A stretch of DNA of 64,000 nt from an uncultured Kiritimatiellota bacterium (GTDB lineage Bacteria > Verrucomicrobiota > Kiritimatiellia > RFP12 > DVOR01): NCBI GenBank assembly GCA_944389585.1, contig CALXMW010000001.1:219435-283434 (forward strand), in the 5' to 3' direction. Under the pieces are notes generated by a model. The model ran no database searches, was not told the origin of the DNA, and saw only the letters and a list, made by a program, of their open reading frames with translations. Position numbers and translations under genes: made by a program. Below, in pieces: positions 7,126 through 54,386 of the stretch (the stretch's first letter is position 1; the number at the start of each line of letters is the position of its first letter).

Positions 7126-8319
7126 TCAGCCCTTGAGGAAGGCGCGGAGGCGGGCGAGGAGGGCGGGGCGGCGGGTCTCCCGCGCCAGGGTGCGGCACCG
7201 CCAGTTGAGCAGGCCCACGGCGGTGGCGTGGCGGTAGGGCTCCTCGGTCATCTCCGGGGGGAGCTTGGCGACGTTGCAGGGCACGCCCAGGACGCAGGGG
7301 AGGCCGAAGATGGCGGCGGCCTGCTCGGCGATGAGGGGGAGCGCGGCGGTGCCGCCGGTGAGGTGGACGGCGCCGCGGATGTGGGGCAGGACGTCGCGCA
7401 GGGCCTCGCGCAGGATGCGGAAGGTCTCGTCGACGCGCTCGGTGGTGACGGTCTGGATGGCGTGGACCGAGAGGGCGCGGTCGCTGGTGGAGAAGGGGGT
7501 GCGCAGGGCGTAGCGGTCGCCGGCGAGGTCGGGCTGGATTTGGGCGGCGCCGCGGGCGAGCTTGACCTCCTCGGCCTGGGTCTGGAGGATTTGGAAGGCG
7601 AGGGCCAGGTCGTTGGTCAGGTGGCCGCCGCCGACGGCGAGGTTGCCCGCGGCGGCGATGACGCCGTTGCAGACGGCCAGGTAGTCGACCGTGCCGGCGC
7701 CGAAGTCGAGCACCAGCGCGCCGTCGTTGCGGGCCTTGGCGTCGAGGACGGCCTCGGCGGCGGCGAAGCCGGAGAAGACGGTCTCGTTGAGGCGCAGCCC
7801 GGCGTGGTGGACGGCGGAAGTGAGGGCGTCGAGCGCGGTGCGCGGGACGAAGAGCTCAAGGATGTTGGAGACGAGCTCGGAGCCGGTCATGCCCAGGGGG
7901 GTGCCGACGGGCTGGCCGTTGACCTCGTATTTTTGGCGGAAGCGTTGGAGAACGACCTCGGTGGCGTCCGGGGCCTCGACGGATTGGGCGTTCTCCTCGG
8001 CGGCGTCGACGTCGTCCTGGTCGATGGCGTGGCCGGGCATGAGCAGGGCGTGGCCGGCGTGGACGGCGGCGGTGAGGCCGAAGCAGGAGAGCGAGGCCGT
8101 GACGTCGGCCAGGTCGATGCGGTGGAGGCGATCCATGTCGTCGCGCACCTTGCGGACGCAGGCGGAGACGGCGTTGATGTCGTGGATGAGGCCCTTGCGG
8201 ACGCCGGCGGTGGGGGTTTCGGTGCGCGCCAGGACGCTCAGCGCGCCGTTCTCGCACTCGCCGGCCACCAGGCTGGTCGTCTGCGTGCCGATGTCCAATG
8301 CGCCCAAGAGGATGCCCAT
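7126..8319 (-). CDS. ftsA: Cell division protein FtsA (actin-like membrane anchor)
   Basis: FtsA is an actin-family ATPase that tethers FtsZ to the membrane and recruits late division proteins. The 397-residue product shows phosphate-1 GALDIGTQTTSL at the N terminus, phosphate-2 LVLDFGAGTVDYL at mid-protein with AVGGGHLTNDLA after it, and an adenosine motif LTGGTAALPLI. The last residues, LARLRAFLKG, form a short amphipathic helix of the type used for membrane targeting. It lies 3 nt upstream of ftsZ and 10 nt downstream of ftsQ, in the classical dcw order. Confidence 0.93.
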   Translation of the reverse strand: MGILLGALDIGTQTTSLVAGECENGALSVLARTETPTAGVRKGLIHDINAVSACVRKVRDDMDRLHRIDLADVTASLSCFGLTAAVHAGHALLMPGHAIDQDDVDAAEENAQSVEAPDATEVVLQRFRQKYEVNGQPVGTPLGMTGSELVSNILELFVPRTALDALTSAVHHAGLRLNETVFSGFAAAEAVLDAKARNDGALVLDFGAGTVDYLAVCNGVIAAAGNLAVGGGHLTNDLALAFQILQTQAEEVKLARGAAQIQPDLAGDRYALRTPFSTSDRALSVHAIQTVTTERVDETFRILREALRDVLPHIRGAVHLTGGTAALPLIAEQAAAIFGLPCVLGVPCNVAKLPPEMTEEPYRHATAVGLLNWRCRTLARETRRPALLARLRAFLKG

Positions 8320-8329
8320 GTCGCTCCTT

Positions 8330-43935: not shown

Positions 43936-44340
43936 TTACTGCCTTGGTGGAAACAACCACCGCAACGCAATGGCCGTCAAGCCAAGGACCTGCCCAAGCG
44001 TAGTCGATAGTAAAGTGATTAAAATCGCATCTGAAAACGTCGAGAACCAAAGTGTCACCCACGTGAGCACAGACCACACAATGACATAAATCCCCAAGAT
44101 GACGAGCACCACCCATCTGACAACACCTTCTTGCTCAAGCGCCCTAAGCTCAAGTTTTAGCTTCTCAAGCGCAATATCTTTTTCACGGATAATTTGCTCG
44201 CGGCGCTGAAGCTCAAAGTTTTTCTCCTTCTCCGTAAGAACGGTATTGGCCTCTTCTTGGGAAGATTGTTGCACCAAATCTTCCGGCGTTGGAAGAATGG
44301 CATTCAGGGTCGCCTTGGCATCCTTCGCAGAGCCACTCAT
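43936..44340 (-). CDS. Small coiled-coil membrane protein, candidate toxin of a Panacea-type pair
   Basis: A 134-residue protein: N-terminal hydrophilic part, a coiled coil rich in Glu/Lys (residues about 35-75, NFELQRREQIIREKDIALEKL), then two membrane helices (VVRWVVLVILGIYVIVWSVLTWV and FSDAILITLLSTTLGQVLGLTAIAL) and a short basic tail. The ATG at 44340 overlaps the stop of the Panacea-domain gene (ATGA), so the two are translated together. Lower GC content than the backbone marks transfer. Small membrane proteins are among the toxins known to be neutralised by Panacea antitoxins; that assignment is inference here. It could also be a phage superinfection or holin-like protein. Confidence 0.65.
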   Translation of the reverse strand: MSGSAKDAKATLNAILPTPEDLVQQSSQEEANTVLTEKEKNFELQRREQIIREKDIALEKLKLELRALEQEGVVRWVVLVILGIYVIVWSVLTWVTLWFSTFSDAILITLLSTTLGQVLGLTAIALRWLFPPRQ

Positions 44341-44813
44341 TGCTGTTCCCCGAACTTTTTTTCGGCCATCACATCGATGGGAATGATGCCATAACGGTTC
44401 GTGTTGTAAACTACCGACCAAGGCGAATCGCGATGGTGGGACAACATAGAGAGCTGCACGGAAGTGTACCCCTTGAACTGATCCCAAATCGCATGGATAA
44501 TCGCCAAAGAGCGCGAATCGGAAATAGAAGTACACCCCGCAAAGACCTCTTGAACCTTAGGGTTCTCAAGCGAGAGAAACGCAGACCCGAACTGCTTGAT
44601 CTTTTTATACAGCAGAGGACTCACCGGCCCATAATCCCAAGCATGGAAATTACTTGAGACCAAAGGATCGTTCTTGTCCATGCAGACGGAAAGAACCTGA
44701 GCGAAAAAGACCAACTTTTGCAACTTCATGTTGCTGATGTCCTGTTTCGCGGAGGCATCCCGTTGCGCCAATTCCAAAAAAGCGTTGGCCACATCCAACG
44801 ACGTATAAGCCAT
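44337..44813 (-). CDS. Panacea-domain (DUF4065/SocA-like) protein, candidate antitoxin
   Basis: A 158-residue protein with the Panacea/DUF4065 pattern: SLDVANAFLELA, NMKLQKLVFFAQVLSV, HAWDYGPVSPLLYKKIKQFGS, then AIIHAIWDQFKGYTSVQLSMLSHH and SPWSVVYN. These proteins act as antitoxins (PanA, SocA) or phage-encoded GepA-like factors. Start ATG 44813 has AAAGGAGG upstream and a strong promoter. The coupled downstream gene encodes a small membrane protein, the usual partner position. AT-richer than neighbours. Confidence 0.85.
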   Translation of the reverse strand: MAYTSLDVANAFLELAQRDASAKQDISNMKLQKLVFFAQVLSVCMDKNDPLVSSNFHAWDYGPVSPLLYKKIKQFGSAFLSLENPKVQEVFAGCTSISDSRSLAIIHAIWDQFKGYTSVQLSMLSHHRDSPWSVVYNTNRYGIIPIDVMAEKKFGEQQ

Positions 44814-45474: not shown

Positions 45475-46020
45475 ATGGGCACACGCGCCGTCCACCGCAC
45501 CGACTGACCCCAACGCTGGCGCGCCGCCGGCGAGCGCGTCGCCTGGCGCGGCGCGCACCGCACCAAGATGGTCGCCCTGAAATCCTCCCCCATCTGGCAG
45601 GCGCTGGGCGACGGCGCGGGCGGCTTCCGCGACACCCTCGGCAACCCCTATCCGCCCTTCGCCTTCGGCTCCTCCTACGCCTGGGTTCACGTCGACCGCC
45701 TCGAGGCCCGCGAGCTCGGCCTGCTCGACGACACCGCCAACCGCCTCGGCGCCACCCCCACCGGCTTCTGGTCCGGCTCCGCGCAGGCCGTCCGCCTCCA
45801 CACCCACGCCAACGACGCCGAGGTCTCCGTCACCCACCCCGGCATCGCCCGCGCCGTGCGCGACGTCATCATCCGCCCCCGCCGCGCCAAGGCGCTCACC
45901 ATCCCCCTGCGCGCCGAGGCCTACGGCAGGCGCCCCCGCGAGCTCACGCGCCTCTCCGGCGCAGCCTTCTTCCGCCCCAAGGGCACCCGCATCCTCGCCA
46001 CCGAGGGGGGTGGCAGACTC
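45475..46020 (+). pseudogene. Remnant of a Mu-like virion protein (head/morphogenesis type)
   Basis: The frame from about 45475 encodes MGTRAVHRTD, a TGA at 45505, then RWRAAGERVAWRGAHRTKMVALKSSPIWQALG, DTLGNPYPPFAFGSSYAWV and, later, RRAKALTIPLRAEAYGRR with AAFFRPKGTRILAT. The NPYPPFAFGS stretch and the ALTIP ending occur in phage minor head and virion morphogenesis proteins, as far as I can judge. No start codon with a ribosome site is seen and the TGA interrupts it. It fits as the right-hand end of the decayed prophage. The gene end is unclear because the frame runs on. Confidence 0.45.
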
Positions 46021-46197
46021 ACCCGCGAAAGCGCCTCCGTGGGAGGCGACCGCACGGCCTCCGAGGAGTCGGGGCGCAGGGGTTCCCGCCCGACCACCCT
46101 GTACTTCACCCCCTACCACTCTCTACCCAACAGCCAACCGCTCTCTGGTCCACAGCCGACCACTCCCCACACGCGGCCTGATTGGGGCGAGGGGGGA

Positions 46198-46233
46198 CAA
46201 AAAAGCCCCGGGCGTTTGCCCGGGGCTTTTTTG
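46198..46233. terminator. Bidirectional rho-independent terminator
   Basis: CAAAAAAGCCCCGGGC, GTTT loop, GCCCGGGGCTTTTTTG: fully symmetrical, with T-runs in both directions. It ends the secretin operon on the minus strand. Confidence 0.9.
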
Positions 46234-46248
46234 TTGGCTCGCGCCGTC

Positions 46249-49200
46249 TTATTGGACGGTGGAGGACATGGTGCCGGCGGCGGCGCCGCTGTTCATGGCG
46301 CCGGTGCCCATGCGGCCGTCGGTGGCGGTCTTGAGGGGACGGCCGGCGGGGTCGACGAGGCGGGCGGTGAGGAAGACGAGGAGGTTGCGCTTCTCGCTGT
46401 ATTCGCCGGTGGAGCGGAAGAGGAACCCGATGAAGGGGAGGTCGCCCAAGATCGGGATCTTGTCTTCGAAGGAGTTGCGGGTCTCGGTGATGAGGCCGCC
46501 CATGACGACGGTGGAGCCGTTGTAGACGGAGAGGGAGGTGTTGATCTGGCGGAAGTGGAACCTCGGCTGGGGCATGGAGACTTGGTAGTACTCGACCTCG
46601 GCGGAGGTGACGATGCCGCCGGTCATGCCGTATTGGATGTAGGGCACTTGCATGCCGTACTCGAAGTCGCCGAGGTATTCCACGACGGTGGGGGCGACGG
46701 TGAGGTTGATCATCTGGCCTTCCTGGGAGACCTGCGGGATGACGTTGAGGGAGACGCCGACGTCTTGTTTCTCGAAGGACTGGGGCTCGACGGCGAACTT
46801 GACGGGCGGGGCTTGGACGTTGTTGCCGCCGTTGCCGATGCCCCAGTTGTTGTTATTGTTGTTGTCGTCGTCGTTGTCGAGCTCGGTGACGTCGAACTCG
46901 GTGGGGTAGATCCACTCGGTGACGACGCGGATTTGGGCTTCTTCGTTGGGGCGGGCGAGCACCTTGGGGCTGGAGAGCATGTCGGTGTCGGTGCGCTGGG
47001 CAAGCATGTGGAGGATGAGGGAGATGTCCATCTTGCCGAAGACGGCGGAGAAGCCGAGGAACTCGTCGTTGGGGGCGAGGGTGGAGCCGCTGAGGTTGAT
47101 GCGGTTGGCGTAGGTGGAGGAGTCGCCGAGGAAGCGCATGCCGTTGTTGAAGGAGCCGCCGTGGACGGCGACGTTGGCGTCGCCGGTGCCGCCGAGAGCC
47201 TGGGCCGCGCCGCGGAAGACGTGGTCGCCGGTGGCGCCGATGCCGCCGGCGCCGGTGCCGCCGGAGGGGTTGCCCTTGATGGAGCTGTCAGACCAGTTGA
47301 TGCCGGAGCCGACGGTGCCGAGGATGTCGCTGTTGAGCTGCCACTCGAAGCCGAGGGAGTTGAGGTCTTCCTGGCTGACTTCGACGAAGCGGGCCTCGAC
47401 CTCGATCTGGTAGGGCGTGACGTTGAGTTCTTCGAGGATGCCTTCGAAGATGGCGAGGTTCTGGGCGGTGTTCTTGACGCGGAGCTTGCCGATGGTGGAG
47501 AGGTAGACGATGCTCGCGTCGCCCTCGAAGGGCACGCCGAGCTGCTGGAAGAAGTCCTTCAGCTGGTCGGGGGTGGCGGAGCCGCCGCCGAGCCCGGAGG
47601 AGCCGGAGTCCATGCTGCCCCAGTCGTCGCCGCCGCCGAAGCCGGAGGAGGACGAGGAGCTCTGGAGGTCGGACTGGACGCCGGTGACCTTGTCCATCAG
47701 GTCGCCCATGACGTTGTAGGTGCGGGTTTCCATCTCGCCCTCGACGAAGGTGGTGGGGACGATGATGACGTTTTTGCCGCGGACGATGTACTTGGTGTTG
47801 GTGACCATGCAGACCATGTCGAGGGCCTCTTTGAGGGTGACCCAGGTGAGGCTGATGTTCTGGATGGGCGGGAGGCCGCCGGAGGAGGCGGAGGTGTCGG
47901 TGGCGAAGGGATCGGCCTCGGCGGCGGGGGCCGCGGCGGCGGCGCCGGAGTTCATGTTGAGGACGAAGGAGAGTCCGCGCTCTTCGGGGGGAAGCTCGGG
48001 GCGGTCGTAGGTGCGGGACATCTCGGCGAACATCTGCACGGCGTCGGCGAGGGTGCTCGGCGGGCGGATGGAGAACTCGGGAAGGCGGATGTATTGGAGC
48101 TTGGCGATGACGGCCTGCTCGTCGCGCTGGCCCTGCTCGTCGACGGGGGCGGCGGTGCCGGTGGAGACGGTGGGGGCGTAGAGCTCCTCGGAGTCGCGGG
48201 CGAGGGCGCCGACGGGAGTCCAGTTGAAGGAGACCTGGTCGATCATCTCGGCGTGGGTGGAGGCCTGAAGCTGACGGTCGCGGCTGTCCTTGCGCTTGGC
48301 AATCCGGTCGCGGAGGCTGATGGCGGCCTCGTTGTTGGGATCCTCGCGGAGGATGAGGTCAAGCTGGTCGAGGGCCTCTTTGTATTTGGCGAGGTGGTAA
48401 TAAACGGTGGCACGGCGGAAACGGGCCATCATGTCGAGGCGTTCGCGCTGATAATCCTCCTGGGCGTATTCGGGGAGCGTGGGGGTGGGGCGGATTTCCG
48501 GCGGGCGGTTGACTTCGGCCTGGATGGCGGCGATGAGCTCGGCGGCGCGGGGGTGGCCTTCGCGCTGGACTTGCTGGGCGAGCTCGAGGGCGGCGGCGTA
48601 GTCCTTGTCGTTGGCGAAGTAGTTGTAAGCCTGGCGGTAGCGGGCCTCGCGGATGCCGCGGTCGCATTCGTCCTTGAGGGGGAGGTTGGCCTCGTGCTCG
48701 CGGAAGAAGGTTTTGGCGTCGGTGTACATCTTGATGGCGGCCTTGTAGTGGTCGAAGGCCTTGCCGGGCTCGGGCGGGGTCTGCATCAGCTCGCGGGCGC
48801 GGTTGAGGCAGGCGGCGGCCTGGATGTCGAGGCCGCGGTTTTTGAGGCGCATGAGCATTTCGAGCTCGTTGAGGGCCTTGTCTTCCTCGGAGAGGGTGAC
48901 GACGGGGGCCTCGGGGTTCAGGCCGGCCAGGAGGCCGCCGGCGGGCGCGGCGGCGGGCGTCTCGGCGGGGGGTTCGGTGGGCGTTTCGGTGGCGTCGGCG
49001 ACGGCCTCGTCAATCGCTTCGTCGGCGAGTTCCTCGGCGGCCTCGTCGATGGTCTCTTCGGCGACGGCTTCGTCGATGAGTTCGTCGGCGGCTTCTTCGG
49101 CGATGGCCTCGTCGGCGGCTTCATCGGCGGGCTCCTCGGCGGCCTCGTCGATGAGTTCGTCGGCGGCCTCGTCGGCGATGGCTTCGTCGGCGGCTTCGTC

Positions 49201-49500
49201 AAGGGCGTCGGCGGCGATGGCCTCGTCGAGGGCTTCTTCGGCATCCTCGGCGGCGACGTCTTCGGCGGGCTCCTCGGCGGCGGGCGCGTCGTCGAGGGCG
49301 ACGTCTTCGGCGGGGGTTTCGTCGAGGGCGGGCTCGGCTTCGGGTGCGGGTTCGTCGGCGGGCTGCTCGGGCTCGGCGGCGGGTTCCTCTGCGATGAGGC
49401 CGCTCAAGAGGGCGTCGAGGTCTTCATCCTGCGCCGAGGCATAGCAAGCCGCCCCGGCAACCATCACGCCGACCATGGCATAGCGCACAAAGTGTGTCAT
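46249..49500 (-). CDS. Secretin, Amuc_1098-like pilus outer-membrane channel
   Basis: A 1083-residue outer-membrane secretin. A signal peptide ends near ACYASAQ. Then comes a striking acidic low-complexity region (about residues 25-180, repeats such as EEAADELIDEA), helical TPR-like repeats (about 200-370: AFDHYKAAIKMYTDAKTFF, RRATVYYHLAKYKEALDQL), N-domains (LTWVTLKEALDMVCMVTNTKY; LRVKNTAQNLAIFEGILEEL), and the secretin barrel with VGVSLNVIPQVS, TVVMGGLITETRNSFEDKIPILGDLPFIGFLF and NLLVFLTARLVDP. Such a large TPR-bearing form is typical of the Amuc_1098 family. ATG 49500 is chosen over 49518 because GGAGAAAACG stands in front of it. It has its own promoter inside the end of the preceding gene. 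Confidence 0.9.
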   Translation of the reverse strand: MTHFVRYAMVGVMVAGAACYASAQDEDLDALLSGLIAEEPAAEPEQPADEPAPEAEPALDETPAEDVALDDAPAAEEPAEDVAAEDAEEALDEAIAADALDEAADEAIADEAADELIDEAAEEPADEAADEAIAEEAADELIDEAVAEETIDEAAEELADEAIDEAVADATETPTEPPAETPAAAPAGGLLAGLNPEAPVVTLSEEDKALNELEMLMRLKNRGLDIQAAACLNRARELMQTPPEPGKAFDHYKAAIKMYTDAKTFFREHEANLPLKDECDRGIREARYRQAYNYFANDKDYAAALELAQQVQREGHPRAAELIAAIQAEVNRPPEIRPTPTLPEYAQEDYQRERLDMMARFRRATVYYHLAKYKEALDQLDLILREDPNNEAAISLRDRIAKRKDSRDRQLQASTHAEMIDQVSFNWTPVGALARDSEELYAPTVSTGTAAPVDEQGQRDEQAVIAKLQYIRLPEFSIRPPSTLADAVQMFAEMSRTYDRPELPPEERGLSFVLNMNSGAAAAAPAAEADPFATDTSASSGGLPPIQNISLTWVTLKEALDMVCMVTNTKYIVRGKNVIIVPTTFVEGEMETRTYNVMGDLMDKVTGVQSDLQSSSSSSGFGGGDDWGSMDSGSSGLGGGSATPDQLKDFFQQLGVPFEGDASIVYLSTIGKLRVKNTAQNLAIFEGILEELNVTPYQIEVEARFVEVSQEDLNSLGFEWQLNSDILGTVGSGINWSDSSIKGNPSGGTGAGGIGATGDHVFRGAAQALGGTGDANVAVHGGSFNNGMRFLGDSSTYANRINLSGSTLAPNDEFLGFSAVFGKMDISLILHMLAQRTDTDMLSSPKVLARPNEEAQIRVVTEWIYPTEFDVTELDNDDDNNNNNNWGIGNGGNNVQAPPVKFAVEPQSFEKQDVGVSLNVIPQVSQEGQMINLTVAPTVVEYLGDFEYGMQVPYIQYGMTGGIVTSAEVEYYQVSMPQPRFHFRQINTSLSVYNGSTVVMGGLITETRNSFEDKIPILGDLPFIGFLFRSTGEYSEKRNLLVFLTARLVDPAGRPLKTATDGRMGTGAMNSGAAAGTMSSTVQ

Positions 49501-49552
49501 AGCACGTTTTCTCCGCATTATCGGGCCAAGCCCAAATCCAAATCGTGGTGTC

Positions 49553-49581
49553 AGTATAGCCTATCGCAACGGTTATTGCAA
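49553..49581 (-). promoter_or_regulatory. Internal sigma70-type promoter of the secretin gene
   Basis: Minus strand TTGCAA, 17-nt spacer, TATACT. The -35 overlaps the last Leu-Gln codons of the upstream Amuc_1099-like gene, allowing separate secretin expression. Confidence 0.6.
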
Positions 49582-50670
49582 CTCAAAAACCCGCTTGTCC
49601 GCATTTTTTTCGATTTTGACGGTCTTGGCCGCCGGATCGAGGTCGCGGAGGGTGAAGGTTTCGCCTTTGACGGTGAAGGTGGCGCCGGGGGCGACGGTGA
49701 CGGGCTCGACGCCCGGCAGGTCGAAGAGGATTTCGGCCTTTTGCTCGAAGAGCGGCTCGCCGGGCCAGTCGGGGTTCTTGGGGTCGTGGAAGGTGAGCGT
49801 GGCGGTCTTGCCGTCGGCGATGCGCGCGACTTGGGCGGTGGAGACTTCCACGAGCAGGAGGGTTTTGTGGGGGCCGACGCGGATGGGCTTCTTGTCGAGC
49901 TTGGTGTAGGAGACGAGCTTGAAGCCGGATTTGCCGATGGGGTCGCCGGTTTTGACGCGCAGGGGGGTGGAGCCTTCGACGCCGTCTGGCGAGACGGAGA
50001 CGAAGGTGACCATGAAGGGCGTGTACGTCTTGCCGTCGGGGCCTTTTTCGGCGGGGAGCTGCATGGCGTTGTTGACGCGCAGGGGGACTTTTTCGCCGGA
50101 GATGGCGCCGAGCTTCATGCGTGTTTCGTAGCCGGGGTGGCTCTTGGGGTCGCGGGGGTCGGTCTTGGCGGCGTATTCCTCGGCGTTGGTGAAGCCGTCC
50201 TCGTCGGCGTCGAGGTCGGCGTCGTCGGGGTTCTGCGGGTCGAGCTTGTGGGCGAGTTCCCAGACGTCTGGGAGGCCGTCGCCGTCGCTGTCGATGGTGG
50301 AGAGGTCGATTTTCTTTTCCTTGGGTTGCTCGGCCTTGCAGTCGGCGTAGGTGCAGACGTCGGCGAGGGCGGGGATGGGGCGCGCGCATTTGACGCAGAG
50401 GAAGCGGCGCTCGGGGGTGAAGAGGTCGGGCGCGGTGGCGTTGGCGCGCGGCTTGAGTGGCTCGACGGCGGTGACGGCGGCGGCGTAGGCCTGGGGCTGG
50501 ATGGTCTCGGAGGAGGGCGCGGCGACGCGCACGCGGTAGGCGTCGAGGTCTTTCTGGCGTTGGAGGCCGAAGAGGATGAGGTAGAGGAGGGAGACGGCGA
50601 TGACGGCGAGGACGGCGACGGCGATGAGCCGGTCGTACTGGCGCAGGATGGGGGGGAGTTCTTTCGCCAT
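49573..50670 (-). CDS. Amuc_1099-like pilus-system protein
   Basis: A 365-residue single-pass membrane protein: short cytoplasmic tail, membrane helix at about 16-35 (LIAVAVLAVIAVSLLYLILF), a cysteine pair region (FLCVKCARPIPALADVCTYADC) resembling a small zinc ribbon, then Ca-binding type-3 repeats (IDSDGDGLPDVWELAHKLDPQNPDDADLDADEDGF), and a beta-rich C-terminal region. This layout, and the place between the Amuc_1100-like gene and the secretin, matches Amuc_1099. Probably a periplasmic link (PilP/PilO-like) to the secretin. Confidence 0.85.
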   Translation of the reverse strand: MAKELPPILRQYDRLIAVAVLAVIAVSLLYLILFGLQRQKDLDAYRVRVAAPSSETIQPQAYAAAVTAVEPLKPRANATAPDLFTPERRFLCVKCARPIPALADVCTYADCKAEQPKEKKIDLSTIDSDGDGLPDVWELAHKLDPQNPDDADLDADEDGFTNAEEYAAKTDPRDPKSHPGYETRMKLGAISGEKVPLRVNNAMQLPAEKGPDGKTYTPFMVTFVSVSPDGVEGSTPLRVKTGDPIGKSGFKLVSYTKLDKKPIRVGPHKTLLLVEVSTAQVARIADGKTATLTFHDPKNPDWPGEPLFEQKAEILFDLPGVEPVTVAPGATFTVKGETFTLRDLDPAAKTVKIEKNADKRVFELQ

Positions 50671-50673
50671 GGG

Positions 50674-51759
50674 TCAGTTCCCTTCCTTTTCGGGCGCGGG
50701 GGCGGCGGGGGCCTCGGCGGGTGCGGCGGAGTAGACGTCGAAGCGCAGGAGGACGTCGAGGGGGATGGCGTGCTCGGGGTCGGTGACGACGCGCTCGGCG
50801 GGGCTGGCGCCTTCGAAGAGGGGCTTGGCGGCGATTTCGGCGGCGCGTTGCTGGGCGTCTGGGTCGCGCGAGCTGGCGGCGCGGCGGGCGGCGGCCTGGC
50901 GGGCGGCCTGGCGCTTGGTCACCAGCTCGTCGACGCGGGCGGAGACGGGGGTCTTGCGGGTGACGGAGAGGTCGGTGACGACGACGAAGAGGGGCTCGGT
51001 GGCCAGGGTGTTGAGGGTTTTGACGACGGTGTCGTAGGGGGCGTTGAAGCGGATGGCGTAGCTTTCGCGGGTGACGCCGTCTTTCGCGAGGATGGGGTCG
51101 ACGGGGGCGCCGACGGGGGCGGCGGGCTGTTGTTCCTCGTCGTCGCGGCGGGAGCGGCGGGAGCGGCGGGTGGAGCGCGGCTCTTCCTCTTGGACGGCGG
51201 CGCCGTCGAAGCGGTCGCGCGTGACCTCGACGATGGAGACGGCGCCGTTGTCAAGGAGCAGGTTGCAGGCGTGCTCGATGACGGCGAACTGGCGGGCCAG
51301 GCGCGGGAGGTCTTTGTCTTTGGGGAGGTTGCCTTGGGCCACGTAGCTTTCGAAGGAGTAGCTCTGTGCCTGCTGTTGCTGCTGGGCGGCGGCGAGGAGC
51401 TGGGCGGCGGGCGTCTGCTGGCGTTCGTTGAGGGCGTGGACGCCTTTGACCAGGCGGTCGGCGAATTGCGAGACGGTCTCGCCTTGGGGGATGGGCAGGC
51501 CGTGGGTGAGGAGGGCGCGCGCCTGGTCGGCGACGGCGGCGGCGGCCTTGGCGTCCTGCTCGCGGGTGTCGCGGTTTTCCTTTGAGGGATAGGGGCGCTC
51601 GGCGCCGTTTGCGGCGATGGTGCGCTCGGCGCGTTTCAGCTCGGCGCTCGACTCGTTGGCCGCGCCGATGGCGACGACGAGACGGAAGGCGAGGAAGAGG
51701 ACGATGAGCCCGCAGAGGGCGCCCGCGGCGATGAGGAGGATTTTTTGTTTCTGGTCCAT
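50674..51759 (-). CDS. Amuc_1100-like pilus-associated protein
   Basis: A 361-residue single-pass protein: membrane helix near the N terminus (ILLIAAGALCGLIVLFLAFRLVVAI), a helical stalk with a Gln/Ala run (QLLAAAQQQQQAQS), and a PilO/GspM-like alpha-beta domain (YAIRFNAPYDTVVKTLNTLATEPLFVVVTDLSV). A linker has a Ser/Arg-rich block (EEPRSTRRSRRSRRDDEE), which is not part of the core fold. In Akkermansia the counterpart is the well known outer-envelope protein that signals through TLR2. Gene order supports the assignment; only 3 nt separate it from the next gene. Confidence 0.87.
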   Translation of the reverse strand: MDQKQKILLIAAGALCGLIVLFLAFRLVVAIGAANESSAELKRAERTIAANGAERPYPSKENRDTREQDAKAAAAVADQARALLTHGLPIPQGETVSQFADRLVKGVHALNERQQTPAAQLLAAAQQQQQAQSYSFESYVAQGNLPKDKDLPRLARQFAVIEHACNLLLDNGAVSIVEVTRDRFDGAAVQEEEPRSTRRSRRSRRDDEEQQPAAPVGAPVDPILAKDGVTRESYAIRFNAPYDTVVKTLNTLATEPLFVVVTDLSVTRKTPVSARVDELVTKRQAARQAAARRAASSRDPDAQQRAAEIAAKPLFEGASPAERVVTDPEHAIPLDVLLRFDVYSAAPAEAPAAPAPEKEGN

Positions 51760-51763
51760 GGGG

Positions 51764-53455
51764 TTACCTCCTGGCGCGGCGACCGGAGCGGCCGGCGGCT
51801 TTGGGCTGGGCCTGTGCCTCGGCGGCGCGCAGGGTGGCCGTGATGTCGAAGGAGGTCATCCACGGCGTCTGCGTCTTTTTGCTGATGGGGATGTTCTTGG
51901 CGTCTTGGGCGAAGACTTCCTGTTTGGCGAGGTTCGCCACCACGGTCTCGTCGATGGTCTTGCCGGGGGCGGAGAGGCGCGGCTCGATGTCTTTCCAGAC
52001 GCAGACGGAGAGGTTGAGGCCTTGGAGCGTCTCGCCGTCGCGCTTGGCCGAGAGGCTGTTGACCCAGGGGCCGTTGGGAATGGCTTCGTCGACGGCGCGC
52101 AGGAGGGCCAGCCATTCGGTGCGGGTCTTGAGGAGCGCGGCGTAGGCCTCGACGCGGGCCTCGGCGGCCTTGGCCTTTTTGTCGGCGTCGGCGTAGCGGC
52201 GTTGGAGGTTGCCGAAGGCGCTGACCTGTTCCTCGGCGAGGGCGACCTTTTCGTCGAGGCGCGCGGAGATGGCGCCGACGTAGGCCAGCCAGATGCCGAC
52301 GATGGCGATGAGGCCGGCCGCGGCGATGGCGAAGAAGGGGATGCGTTTGCGGAAGGCTTTGCGCGCGACGATTTCCTGCGAGACGAGGCTGATCTCGATG
52401 GGGCAGGTGAGGCCGCGGCGGAGGGCCAGGCCCACGAGCACCGGCAGCGAGAAGGCGTCGCGCCCGAACTGGTCGGCGTCCACGTCGCGGGGGTAGTCCA
52501 CGGCCTGGAAGGGGTTGAGGAAGTCGGCCTCCACCTGCAGTTTTTCCTCGAAGAAGTTCTGCATGTAGGGCAACTGCGCGGAGGCGCCGGAGAGGAGGAC
52601 GCGCGCGGGGGCGGAGCCTTCCTGCTGGCTGCGGTAGAAGGCGATGGAGCGGGTGACCTCGGCGTTGAGGCGCGTCATCACCGTGCGGATGACCTTGGAG
52701 AGGCGGTCGACGTCCGGGTCGTCGACGGCGAAGGCGCCGCCTTGGGCCACGATGCCCTGCGTGCATTTGAGGTGCTCGGCCTCTTCCAGCGAGAGGCCGA
52801 ACTGTTTGGCGATCTCGGCGGTGATGGTGTGGCCGGCGACGGGGATGGTGCGGTAGAAGATGCGTTCTTGCTCGACGAAGACGAGGTTGGTGCAGCGCGC
52901 GCCGATGTCGACGATCAGCGTGCAGCCCTCGGCCTCGGGGTAGTTGAAGCGGACGGCGTTGTAGAGCGCCACGGGCGCGACGTCCACCAGCTCCGGCTCG
53001 CACCCGGCGTTGAGCAAGCCTTTGGCGACGGCTTGGACGAGCTCGGCGCGCGCGGCGACGATCATGACGTGTTGCTCGCCGGCGTCGGGCTGGCCCACAA
53101 GCGCGTCGTCCCAGATGGCCTCGGAGAGGGGGAAGGGGACGTTCTGCTCGACCTCGAAGCGGATCTGCTCGCGCATTTTCTCGCCGTCTTCGGCGAGGAC
53201 CTTGACGAAGCGCGGGAAGGCCATCTGCCCCGAGAGCGCCACCAGGATTCGGCCGGGGCGGATGCCGGCGGCGGCCATCATGCCGCGCAGCGCCTGCTCC
53301 AGCTCCACGCCGAAAGTGTCCGGGCTCTCCGCCGCGCCTTCGGGCAGCTCGCCGAAGGTGTAGCGCAACAGGGCCGGGCCGCGGCCCGGGCGCACCTCGA
53401 ACTCGGCCAGGGCCAGGCGCGTGGCGCCGATGTTGAGTGTCAGGATCCGTTCCAT
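51764..53455 (-). CDS. Amuc_1101-like PilM-PilN fusion protein
   Basis: A 563-residue protein. Residues 1-360 form an actin-like PilM domain: ILTLNIGATRLALAEFE, QIRFEVEQNVPFPLSEAIWD, CTLIVDIGARCTNLVFVEQ (phosphate loop) and RVLLSGASAQLPYMQNFF (adenosine loop). A membrane helix at about 375-395 (IPFFAIAAAGLIAIVGIWLAYVGAI) and a coiled coil lead to a PilN-like domain (TEWLALLRAVDEAIPNGPWVNSLS). PilM and PilN form the inner-membrane platform of type IV pili; here they are one polypeptide, as in the Akkermansia locus. Confidence 0.9.
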   Translation of the reverse strand: MERILTLNIGATRLALAEFEVRPGRGPALLRYTFGELPEGAAESPDTFGVELEQALRGMMAAAGIRPGRILVALSGQMAFPRFVKVLAEDGEKMREQIRFEVEQNVPFPLSEAIWDDALVGQPDAGEQHVMIVAARAELVQAVAKGLLNAGCEPELVDVAPVALYNAVRFNYPEAEGCTLIVDIGARCTNLVFVEQERIFYRTIPVAGHTITAEIAKQFGLSLEEAEHLKCTQGIVAQGGAFAVDDPDVDRLSKVIRTVMTRLNAEVTRSIAFYRSQQEGSAPARVLLSGASAQLPYMQNFFEEKLQVEADFLNPFQAVDYPRDVDADQFGRDAFSLPVLVGLALRRGLTCPIEISLVSQEIVARKAFRKRIPFFAIAAAGLIAIVGIWLAYVGAISARLDEKVALAEEQVSAFGNLQRRYADADKKAKAAEARVEAYAALLKTRTEWLALLRAVDEAIPNGPWVNSLSAKRDGETLQGLNLSVCVWKDIEPRLSAPGKTIDETVVANLAKQEVFAQDAKNIPISKKTQTPWMTSFDITATLRAAEAQAQPKAAGRSGRRARR

Positions 53456-53489
53456 AAGCTCTCTTCTCCCGCGTCTCTGGGGCGGCGCG

Positions 53490-54302
53490 TCACTCAGCCT
53501 TCACCTGGTCGTAATACTGGTCGCCGGCCATCACGAAGGGGGTCATCGAGCGGTCGCGCAGGATGCCCTCGCGCCGCACGACGCTCTCGGAGAGGTTCTC
53601 GATGCGCTCCCACCACGCGGCGGCCGTCGGCTTACCGTCGGGGCCGCGCTCCTCGAGGATGGAATCGAGCTTCTTCCCGTCGACGGCCGCGTTGCCCGCC
53701 GCCTGGGTGACGATCTCGCCCTGCTGCACGCCGTCCACCTTGATCTGCACGGAGAAGACCATGGGGTCGCCGTAGATCGCCACCGCGCTCGGCGGCACGC
53801 AGACGGCCGCGTAGTGCTCGCGCCCGGGGGTGATGGAGGTGTAGGTGACGGTGGTCGTCAGCAGCGAGTAGAGCTGCTTGGGGTTGTCCCAGCCGATGGC
53901 GCCGTTGGCCTTTTGGGCGTTGCGCGCCACGCCGGCGGCGATTTTCGATTGCTTCATGTCGTAGAGTAGCGCATAGGTGATTTCCACCTCGGGGATGGCG
54001 AGGACGGGTTTCTTCGCGCCCGAGGCGTCGGTGCCGATGTTGGCCACCTGATAGGCCACCTCGAAGTAGTGCCAGCCTTTGGCGTTGTCCTTCTGGTAAT
54101 TGTCGGTGTGGTTGATTTTCTTCTTCCACTTCGCGTCCACCTGCGGCGCGGCGGTGGTGTAGTCGCTGTCGCCGCCGACGCCCGAGATTTCCTTGATGCG
54201 GATCATCTGGTTCGGCTGCGCCGAACCGCCGCGCGAACGCCCTTGCGCATACGCTCCGCCCGCGCACACCAGCGTCAACGCCACCAACATCCAAGCCTTC
54301 AT
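53490..54302 (-). CDS. Amuc_1102-like exported pilus-associated protein
   Basis: A 270-residue secreted protein with signal peptide MLVALTLVCAGGAYAQG and the start ISGVGGDSDYTTAAPQVD. The mature part is a beta-rich domain (WHYFEVAYQVAN, VTYTSITPGREHYAAVCVPPSAVAIYG) and ends RSMTPFVMAGDQYYDQVKAE. It is the first gene of the operon, with GAAAGGAGTGCGCG before ATG 54302. Synteny with Amuc_1102 gives the assignment. It is probably periplasmic or surface-located; function within the machine is unknown. Confidence 0.82.
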   Translation of the reverse strand: MKAWMLVALTLVCAGGAYAQGRSRGGSAQPNQMIRIKEISGVGGDSDYTTAAPQVDAKWKKKINHTDNYQKDNAKGWHYFEVAYQVANIGTDASGAKKPVLAIPEVEITYALLYDMKQSKIAAGVARNAQKANGAIGWDNPKQLYSLLTTTVTYTSITPGREHYAAVCVPPSAVAIYGDPMVFSVQIKVDGVQQGEIVTQAAGNAAVDGKKLDSILEERGPDGKPTAAAWWERIENLSESVVRREGILRDRSMTPFVMAGDQYYDQVKAE

Positions 54303-54356: not shown

Positions 54357-54386
54357 AGTATACCGCGCCCGCGCCCCGCCCGTCAA
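54357..54386 (-). promoter_or_regulatory. Main promoter of the pilus-like operon
   Basis: Minus strand TTGACG, 18-nt spacer, TATACT, about 54 nt upstream of the first gene. Confidence 0.6.

Follow-up and report, generated by a model that had tools for sequence, protein, structure and literature searches.

Among described systems, the one closest to the locus reported here is the set Amuc_1098–Amuc_1102 of Akkermansia muciniphila, i.e., MUL2 plus a secretin. MUL2 (Amuc_1099–1102) has been characterized as a locus for mucin utilisation that is similar to a secretion system; it has been linked to mucin foraging and attachment, with synteny in aquatic Akkermansiaceae, and a distribution study reports the Amuc_1098–1102 unit from Akkermansiaceae and adjacent Verrucomicrobiales and, less well conserved, from Chthoniobacterales (PMC13174399). 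Further points of comparison are the type IVa PilMNOPQ operon of Myxococcus and Pseudomonas and the GspL-GspM-GspC-GspD assembly of type II secretion; for P. aeruginosa, PMC5805733 reports that PilMNOP are needed for both extension and retraction of type IV pili. Here we analyzed a stretch of 64,000 nucleotides (the window; contig CALXMW010000001.1, assembly GCA_944389585.1) from an uncultured Kiritimatiellota bacterium, in which five adjacent minus-strand genes (46249–54302) show the same five families, order and orientation as the A. muciniphila set, with a PilM-PilN fusion common to both. We consider it highly probable (roughly 0.86) that they constitute one operon for the alignment subcomplex and outer-membrane channel of a type IV pilus, in a form typical of Verrucomicrobiota.

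The original prediction, which relied on motifs and synteny only, had proposed a complete Amuc_1098–1102-type locus with an Amuc_1100 counterpart. The list of open reading frames (ORFs) confirmed the five genes at these coordinates and on this strand, and the homology of all five proteins, now measured by profile searches and AlphaFold models, is significant. NCBIfam provides one model per Akkermansia protein, with curated cut-offs at “equivalog” level. All five models matched in the proposed order, on adjacent proteins encoded on one strand; only the Amuc_1099 model passed its cut-off, whereas the other four matches were significant but below theirs (Table 1). Since four of the five models fall under the equivalog cut-off, the locus is, judged by its profile scores, a divergent homologous counterpart of Amuc_1098–1102 and not an equivalog set. 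It also differs from the A. muciniphila set by an acidic, Ala/Glu-rich N-terminal region in the secretin, by a zinc-ribbon-like Cys motif which the Akkermansia-type 1099 protein lacks, and by little or no pairwise sequence similarity of the Amuc_1100-type (O) and Amuc_1102-type (X) proteins. The intergenic gaps, counted from the 1089-residue to the 270-residue gene, measure 54, 3, 4, and 34 bp. Because a promoter-like site (54386–54357; shuffling leads to an expectation of 0.2 such sites in the whole scanned region) and an intrinsic terminator (46226–46199) bracket the five genes, they look like one transcription unit. The terminator was read directly from the sequence; the pattern scan did not list it, perhaps due to flanking A/T runs extending the stem into the T run.

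The predicted fusion protein of 563 residues comprises an actin/FtsA-like PilM part (residues ~1–350), a transmembrane segment near residue 372, and a PilN-like part from residue ~356 onward. A profile built from this protein and 13 relatives matched Myxococcus xanthus PilM over residues 1–350 (E 8.3e-59) and PilN over residues 356–493 (E 5.8e-8) in the PDB. The model TIGR01175 (pilM) reached 153.6 bits, over its cut-off of 133, and the Pfam PilN model gave an E-value of 0.5 only. As the N-terminal part matches Myxococcus PilM and the C-terminal part Myxococcus PilN, the fusion is real. In the entire genome, this protein is the sole PilM_2 match, and the second match of our PilMN model is FtsA at ~7126–8322.

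The Amuc_1100-type protein of 361 residues shows an N-terminal transmembrane helix, a long coiled coil, and two alpha-beta periplasmic motifs. Single-sequence phmmer against the PDB retrieved nothing real for it, pairwise BLAST against the Akkermansia-type protein gave no significant match (E 0.11), and Pfam had no informative match for either this or the 270-residue protein. Arguments from motif or identity alone would therefore have failed. A profile of its family, however, matched the Amuc_1100 structures 6kny, 6lad, and 6laf with E-values from 1.2e-10 (6kny) to 1e-8, and all 75 aligned sequences of the family match the Amuc_1100 model. Folds were modeled with AlphaFold2 from alignments of the window proteins with named Kiritimatiellae-type loci; for the 361-residue protein, the predicted local distance difference test score (pLDDT) was 87. 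Its ten best Foldseek matches in the PDB were all Amuc_1100, as proposed (probability 1.00, E 1.8e-6 to 7.0e-5; template modeling score by target 0.64–0.74), at an identity of ~10–12% in structural alignment. The next match was P. aeruginosa PilO (2rjz), with a probability of 0.96 but an E-value of 0.24; the assignment to PilO thus rests on fold, without a sequence match to PilO. A hydrophobic N-terminal helix is present in 75 of 75 Amuc_1100-type sequences scored (the window protein and 74 relatives), in keeping with a PilO-type protein whose anchor lies in the inner membrane. By its modeled anatomy, the 361-residue protein is probably a membrane-anchored PilO-type scaffold protein.

The remaining three proteins flank this core. 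The exported 270-residue protein carries a Sec-type signal, MKAWMLVALTLVCAGGAYA-Q, in front of a beta-sandwich. A class III prepilin signal was not found in it, and the motif occurs in 0 of 65 relatives; by its signal sequence, the protein is not a pilin. Its profile, built from these 65 relatives, had Amuc_1102 (7dsz) as the only match in the PDB (E 5.3e-17), and the same structure accounted for the top three Foldseek matches of the AlphaFold2 model (pLDDT 85; E 2.2e-8 to 1.7e-7). The Amuc_1099-type protein of 365 residues combines a transmembrane helix (hydrophobic segment at 15), a zinc-ribbon-like Cys motif, CVKC...CTYADC, at residues ~92–111, TSP3 repeats, and a C-terminal domain. The DxDxDG repeats noted earlier are indeed calcium-binding TSP3 repeats (Pfam TSP3_bac, E 4.3e-9). 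The simple Cys pattern is present in 41 of 70 Amuc_1099-type sequences in the scan of named loci, and the two Akkermansiaceae-type 1099 proteins that were inspected (L087, L088) lack the zinc-ribbon-like motif. For the protein of 1089 residues, the claim of a giant tetratricopeptide repeat (TPR) secretin held in its secretin part (PF00263, E 2.8e-31), while the TPR part is weak, the best TPR-type match (7.7e-4) being below its curated cut-off. Its best match in the PDB is PilQ (6w6m, E 1.4e-16) and GspD models of NCBIfam match as well, so that its sequence identifies it as a PilQ/GspD-type secretin.

Read in order, the genes give X-PilMN-PilO-(PilP position)-PilQ, i.e., a pilMNOPQ-like alignment-complex operon. 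The order M-N-O-P-Q, the sequence matches of the PilM and PilN parts, the PilO fold of the O protein, and the PilQ-type secretin are as in the type IVa operon. In contrast to the latter, PilM and PilN are fused, an extra Amuc_1102-type gene stands at the front, the O protein and the protein in the PilP position are not recognizable by Pfam, and the latter contains TSP3 calcium-binding repeats. In the proposed mechanism, cytoplasmic PilM, fused to inner-membrane PilN, would be the base of a scaffold which, together with the Amuc_1100-type PilO analog and the Amuc_1099-type protein, would cross the inner membrane and the periplasm and so connect the cytoplasm with the secretin, all of them probably assembling into one complex. 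The secretin would act as exit channel for the pilus and the Amuc_1102-type protein as an exported accessory, while motor ATPases (PilB, PilT), PilC, prepilin peptidase, and pilins would be supplied from other loci. The pilus may serve attachment to surfaces or glycans.

These other parts were searched for in the genome (1.95 Mb, 93.6% complete). It had been predicted that genes for ATPase, pilin, and prepilin peptidase are missing nearby; this is correct, and neither these nor PilC had a match inside the contig range of the window. The absence is not notable, however, because ATPases, pilins, and peptidases lie elsewhere in the genome and the locus is an alignment operon of the pilMNOPQ type. 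Contig 2 harbors a PilB-PilT-PilB-type ATPase cluster, with PilT over its cut-off, and a further GspE/PilB-type ATPase. On contig 13, PilC adjoins several consecutive pilins, and another PilC-pilin pair lies at C1:68k. Also detected were Tad-like ATPases, two prepilin peptidases, and 17 matches to the N-methylation motif (N_methyl), of which 15 exceed the cut-off. Thus, PilB, PilT, PilC, prepilin peptidase, and pilins are all present. Since the only PilM of the genome sits in the window operon, this operon is the most likely one to provide the PilB/PilT/PilC machine with its alignment complex.

To place the locus in its phylum, 388 GTDB-based genomes of the same phylum were examined. The PilMN model matched in 372 of them, 345 with E < 1e-20, the weaker matches including FtsA or ordinary PilM. 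Matches to the Amuc_1100 model occurred in 302 genomes (161 of 199 genera), of which 36 exceeded the cut-off; one of 14 control genomes also matched, below the cut-off. Sampled loci of the same class and of other families follow the order X-MN-O-P-Q; the exceptions are contig ends, a few X genes without a match, and some cases with a second secretin in tandem. The order recurs in the 80 named loci, within the limits set by their contigs. In other families of the phylum (L068, L069, L071, L072, L075), a second Amuc_1098-type secretin directly follows the first. The window itself belongs to a gut Kiritimatiellae genus near Candidatus Spyradenecus. Its closest named relatives are recorded as uncultured Kiritimatiellaeota and as Candidatus Spyradenecus faecavium, and records from yak rectum and water-buffalo cecum are also among them; their PilMN identities are 97% and then 79–59%. 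The statement that this is a different gut lineage was accurate. Habitats, as suggested by the titles of the 80 named-locus records, comprise sediments, lakes, digesters, rumen, and a marine rock biofilm, among others.

A common gut habitat and the identical gene order could indicate that this Kiritimatiellae gut lineage recently acquired the Akkermansia locus by horizontal transfer. However, in a PilMN tree, a single branch (Shimodaira–Hasegawa-like approximate likelihood ratio test, SH-aLRT, 96) has all rows of the same class on one of its sides; the window falls within its own genus and is not nested in Akkermansiaceae. Identities to Akkermansia-type proteins amount to 18–32% (44% only over a short TSP3 stretch). 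The tree refutes such a transfer, to which we assign practically no probability, and its topology fits vertical descent. The window genus and its sister L109 stand on a long stem of 1.4 changes per column, which suggests fast sequence change in this gut lineage.

It might also be argued that, instead of a retractile pilus, the locus powers an apparatus for glycan uptake or one resembling type II secretion, as has been proposed for MUL2 of A. muciniphila. The description of MUL2 cited above speaks for this, as do four genomes which retain the locus but are negative for PilT, and the architecture is analogous to GspL-GspM-GspC-GspD, including the matches of the secretin to GspD models. However, the cytoplasmic part is PilM/FtsA-like and passes the cut-off for PilM, a hallmark of type IV pili; at C1:168-180k, the genome possesses a GspE/F/D-type cluster that is separate from the locus and has a secretin of its own; and PilT, found in 372 of the 388 genomes, co-occurs with the locus (both PilMN and PilT in 341 genomes, PilT only in 31, PilMN only in 4, neither in 12; Fisher p ~1e-9). 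We therefore regard a secretion or uptake apparatus as unlikely. Several observations nevertheless weigh against a pilus alignment operon. The Fisher test ignores kinship, and several of the 12 genomes with neither gene come from one family. PilT occurs without a detected PilMN of this kind in the 31 genomes mentioned, and PilMN without a detected PilT in four (G116, G133, G205, G208); incompleteness of metagenome-assembled genomes may explain some cases of either kind, and in the latter four, the pilus might be non-retracting, the scaffold might be put to another use, or the assembly might be incomplete. The genome encodes three further secretins, one of which could also serve the type IV pilus. 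Finally, neither Pfam, NCBIfam nor the PDB profile search (PilP/GspC) gave a PilP match for the 365-residue protein, which would take the role of PilP by its position.

The original prediction further suggested that the Amuc_1100 homolog could act on host TLR2. According to this view, the locus would be immunomodulatory, the 361-residue protein being displayed to the host and signaling via TLR2 like Amuc_1100. The protein is homologous to Amuc_1100 by profile and fold, its close relatives come from animal guts, and purified recombinant Amuc_1100 activates TLR2 reporter cells (PMC5332112). On the other hand, three secreted Akkermansia enzymes also triggered TLR2 in the same assay, although tending to be weaker (PMC5332112). 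The low identity and the failed BLAST comparison speak against a conserved activity, the transmembrane helix and PilO fold put the protein in the inner membrane and periplasm, and the family is spread over a phylum sample that is largely not host-associated. An immunomodulatory locus of this kind is quite improbable, and nothing here supports carrying TLR2 activity over to the 361-residue protein. The locus is best read as real and complete, yet as an ordinary type IV pilus scaffold: as nearly the whole phylum carries it, bacteria of sediments, lakes, and the sea among them, its presence is no ground for expecting TLR2 activity.

A divergent aldo/keto reductase and a MerR regulator lie upstream of the alignment operon, and a threonine-deaminase-like pyridoxal phosphate enzyme is found farther downstream; these three have no evident tie to pili. 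A SocA/Panacea-domain (antitoxin-like) protein is encoded at 44337–44813 on the minus strand (Pfam E 5.6e-14); the frame 43936–44535, which overlaps its gene, has no Pfam match. A plus-strand ORF of 2005 codons (45568–51585) spanning the operon was rejected as a high-GC antisense shadow and is a warning against using ORF length as evidence in this genome. Coordinates of the locus are given in Table 1.

Table 1. Features of the five-gene locus in the window, with NCBIfam scores (bits; cut-off in brackets) where applicable
Feature	Position	Strand	Evidence
Amuc_1102-family exported protein, 270 aa	53490..54302	-	NF042424, E 1.7e-5, 24.5 bits (55)
Amuc_1101-family PilM-PilN fusion, 563 aa	51764..53455	-	NF045709, E 5.7e-126, 421.8 bits (650)
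Amuc_1100-family PilO-type protein, 361 aa	50674..51759	-	NF038287, E 1.9e-11, 43.9 bits (180)
Amuc_1099-family protein, PilP position, 365 aa	49573..50670	-	NF042425, E 7.6e-22, 78.3 bits (50; passed)
Amuc_1098-family outer-membrane secretin, 1089 aa	46249..49518	-	NF042912, E 1.8e-121, 406.7 bits (750); PF00263
Promoter-like site TTGACG-18-TATACT, ~55 bp upstream of first gene	54357..54386	-	10/12 consensus matches
Intrinsic terminator GCCCCGGGC-AAAC-GCCCGGGGC-TTTTTT	46199..46226	-	22 bp past last stop codon; strong

In a literature search pairing Amuc_1100 with PilO or PilN, none of the eight best matches contained Amuc_1100, which is not proof of novelty. What we add is modest: a phylum-wide range with strict gene order in Kiritimatiellae, the explicit assignment of PilN and of PilO, the observation that the 1102-type protein does not carry a pilin signal, and the zinc-ribbon-like insertion in the Kiritimatiellae 1099-type protein. 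Tentatively, and at somewhat less than even odds, we propose a Verrucomicrobiota variant of the type IV pilus, with a phylum-typical exported extra subunit of the non-pilin Amuc_1102 type and a calcium-binding TSP3 protein in the place of PilP; Amuc_1100 would then be PilO, an inner-membrane scaffold part whose effect on TLR2 is incidental to its function. The Amuc_1098–1102 unit thus has a wider range than known so far, extending over all of the class Kiritimatiellae and the majority of the families sampled in the phylum. This argues that Amuc_1100 evolved as part of a pilus scaffold and not as a host signal, and against taking an Amuc_1100-type gene in a gut genome as a sign of probiotic potential. 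Natural variants at ~10% identity are possible controls for determining which features of Amuc_1100, if any, are recognized by TLR2.

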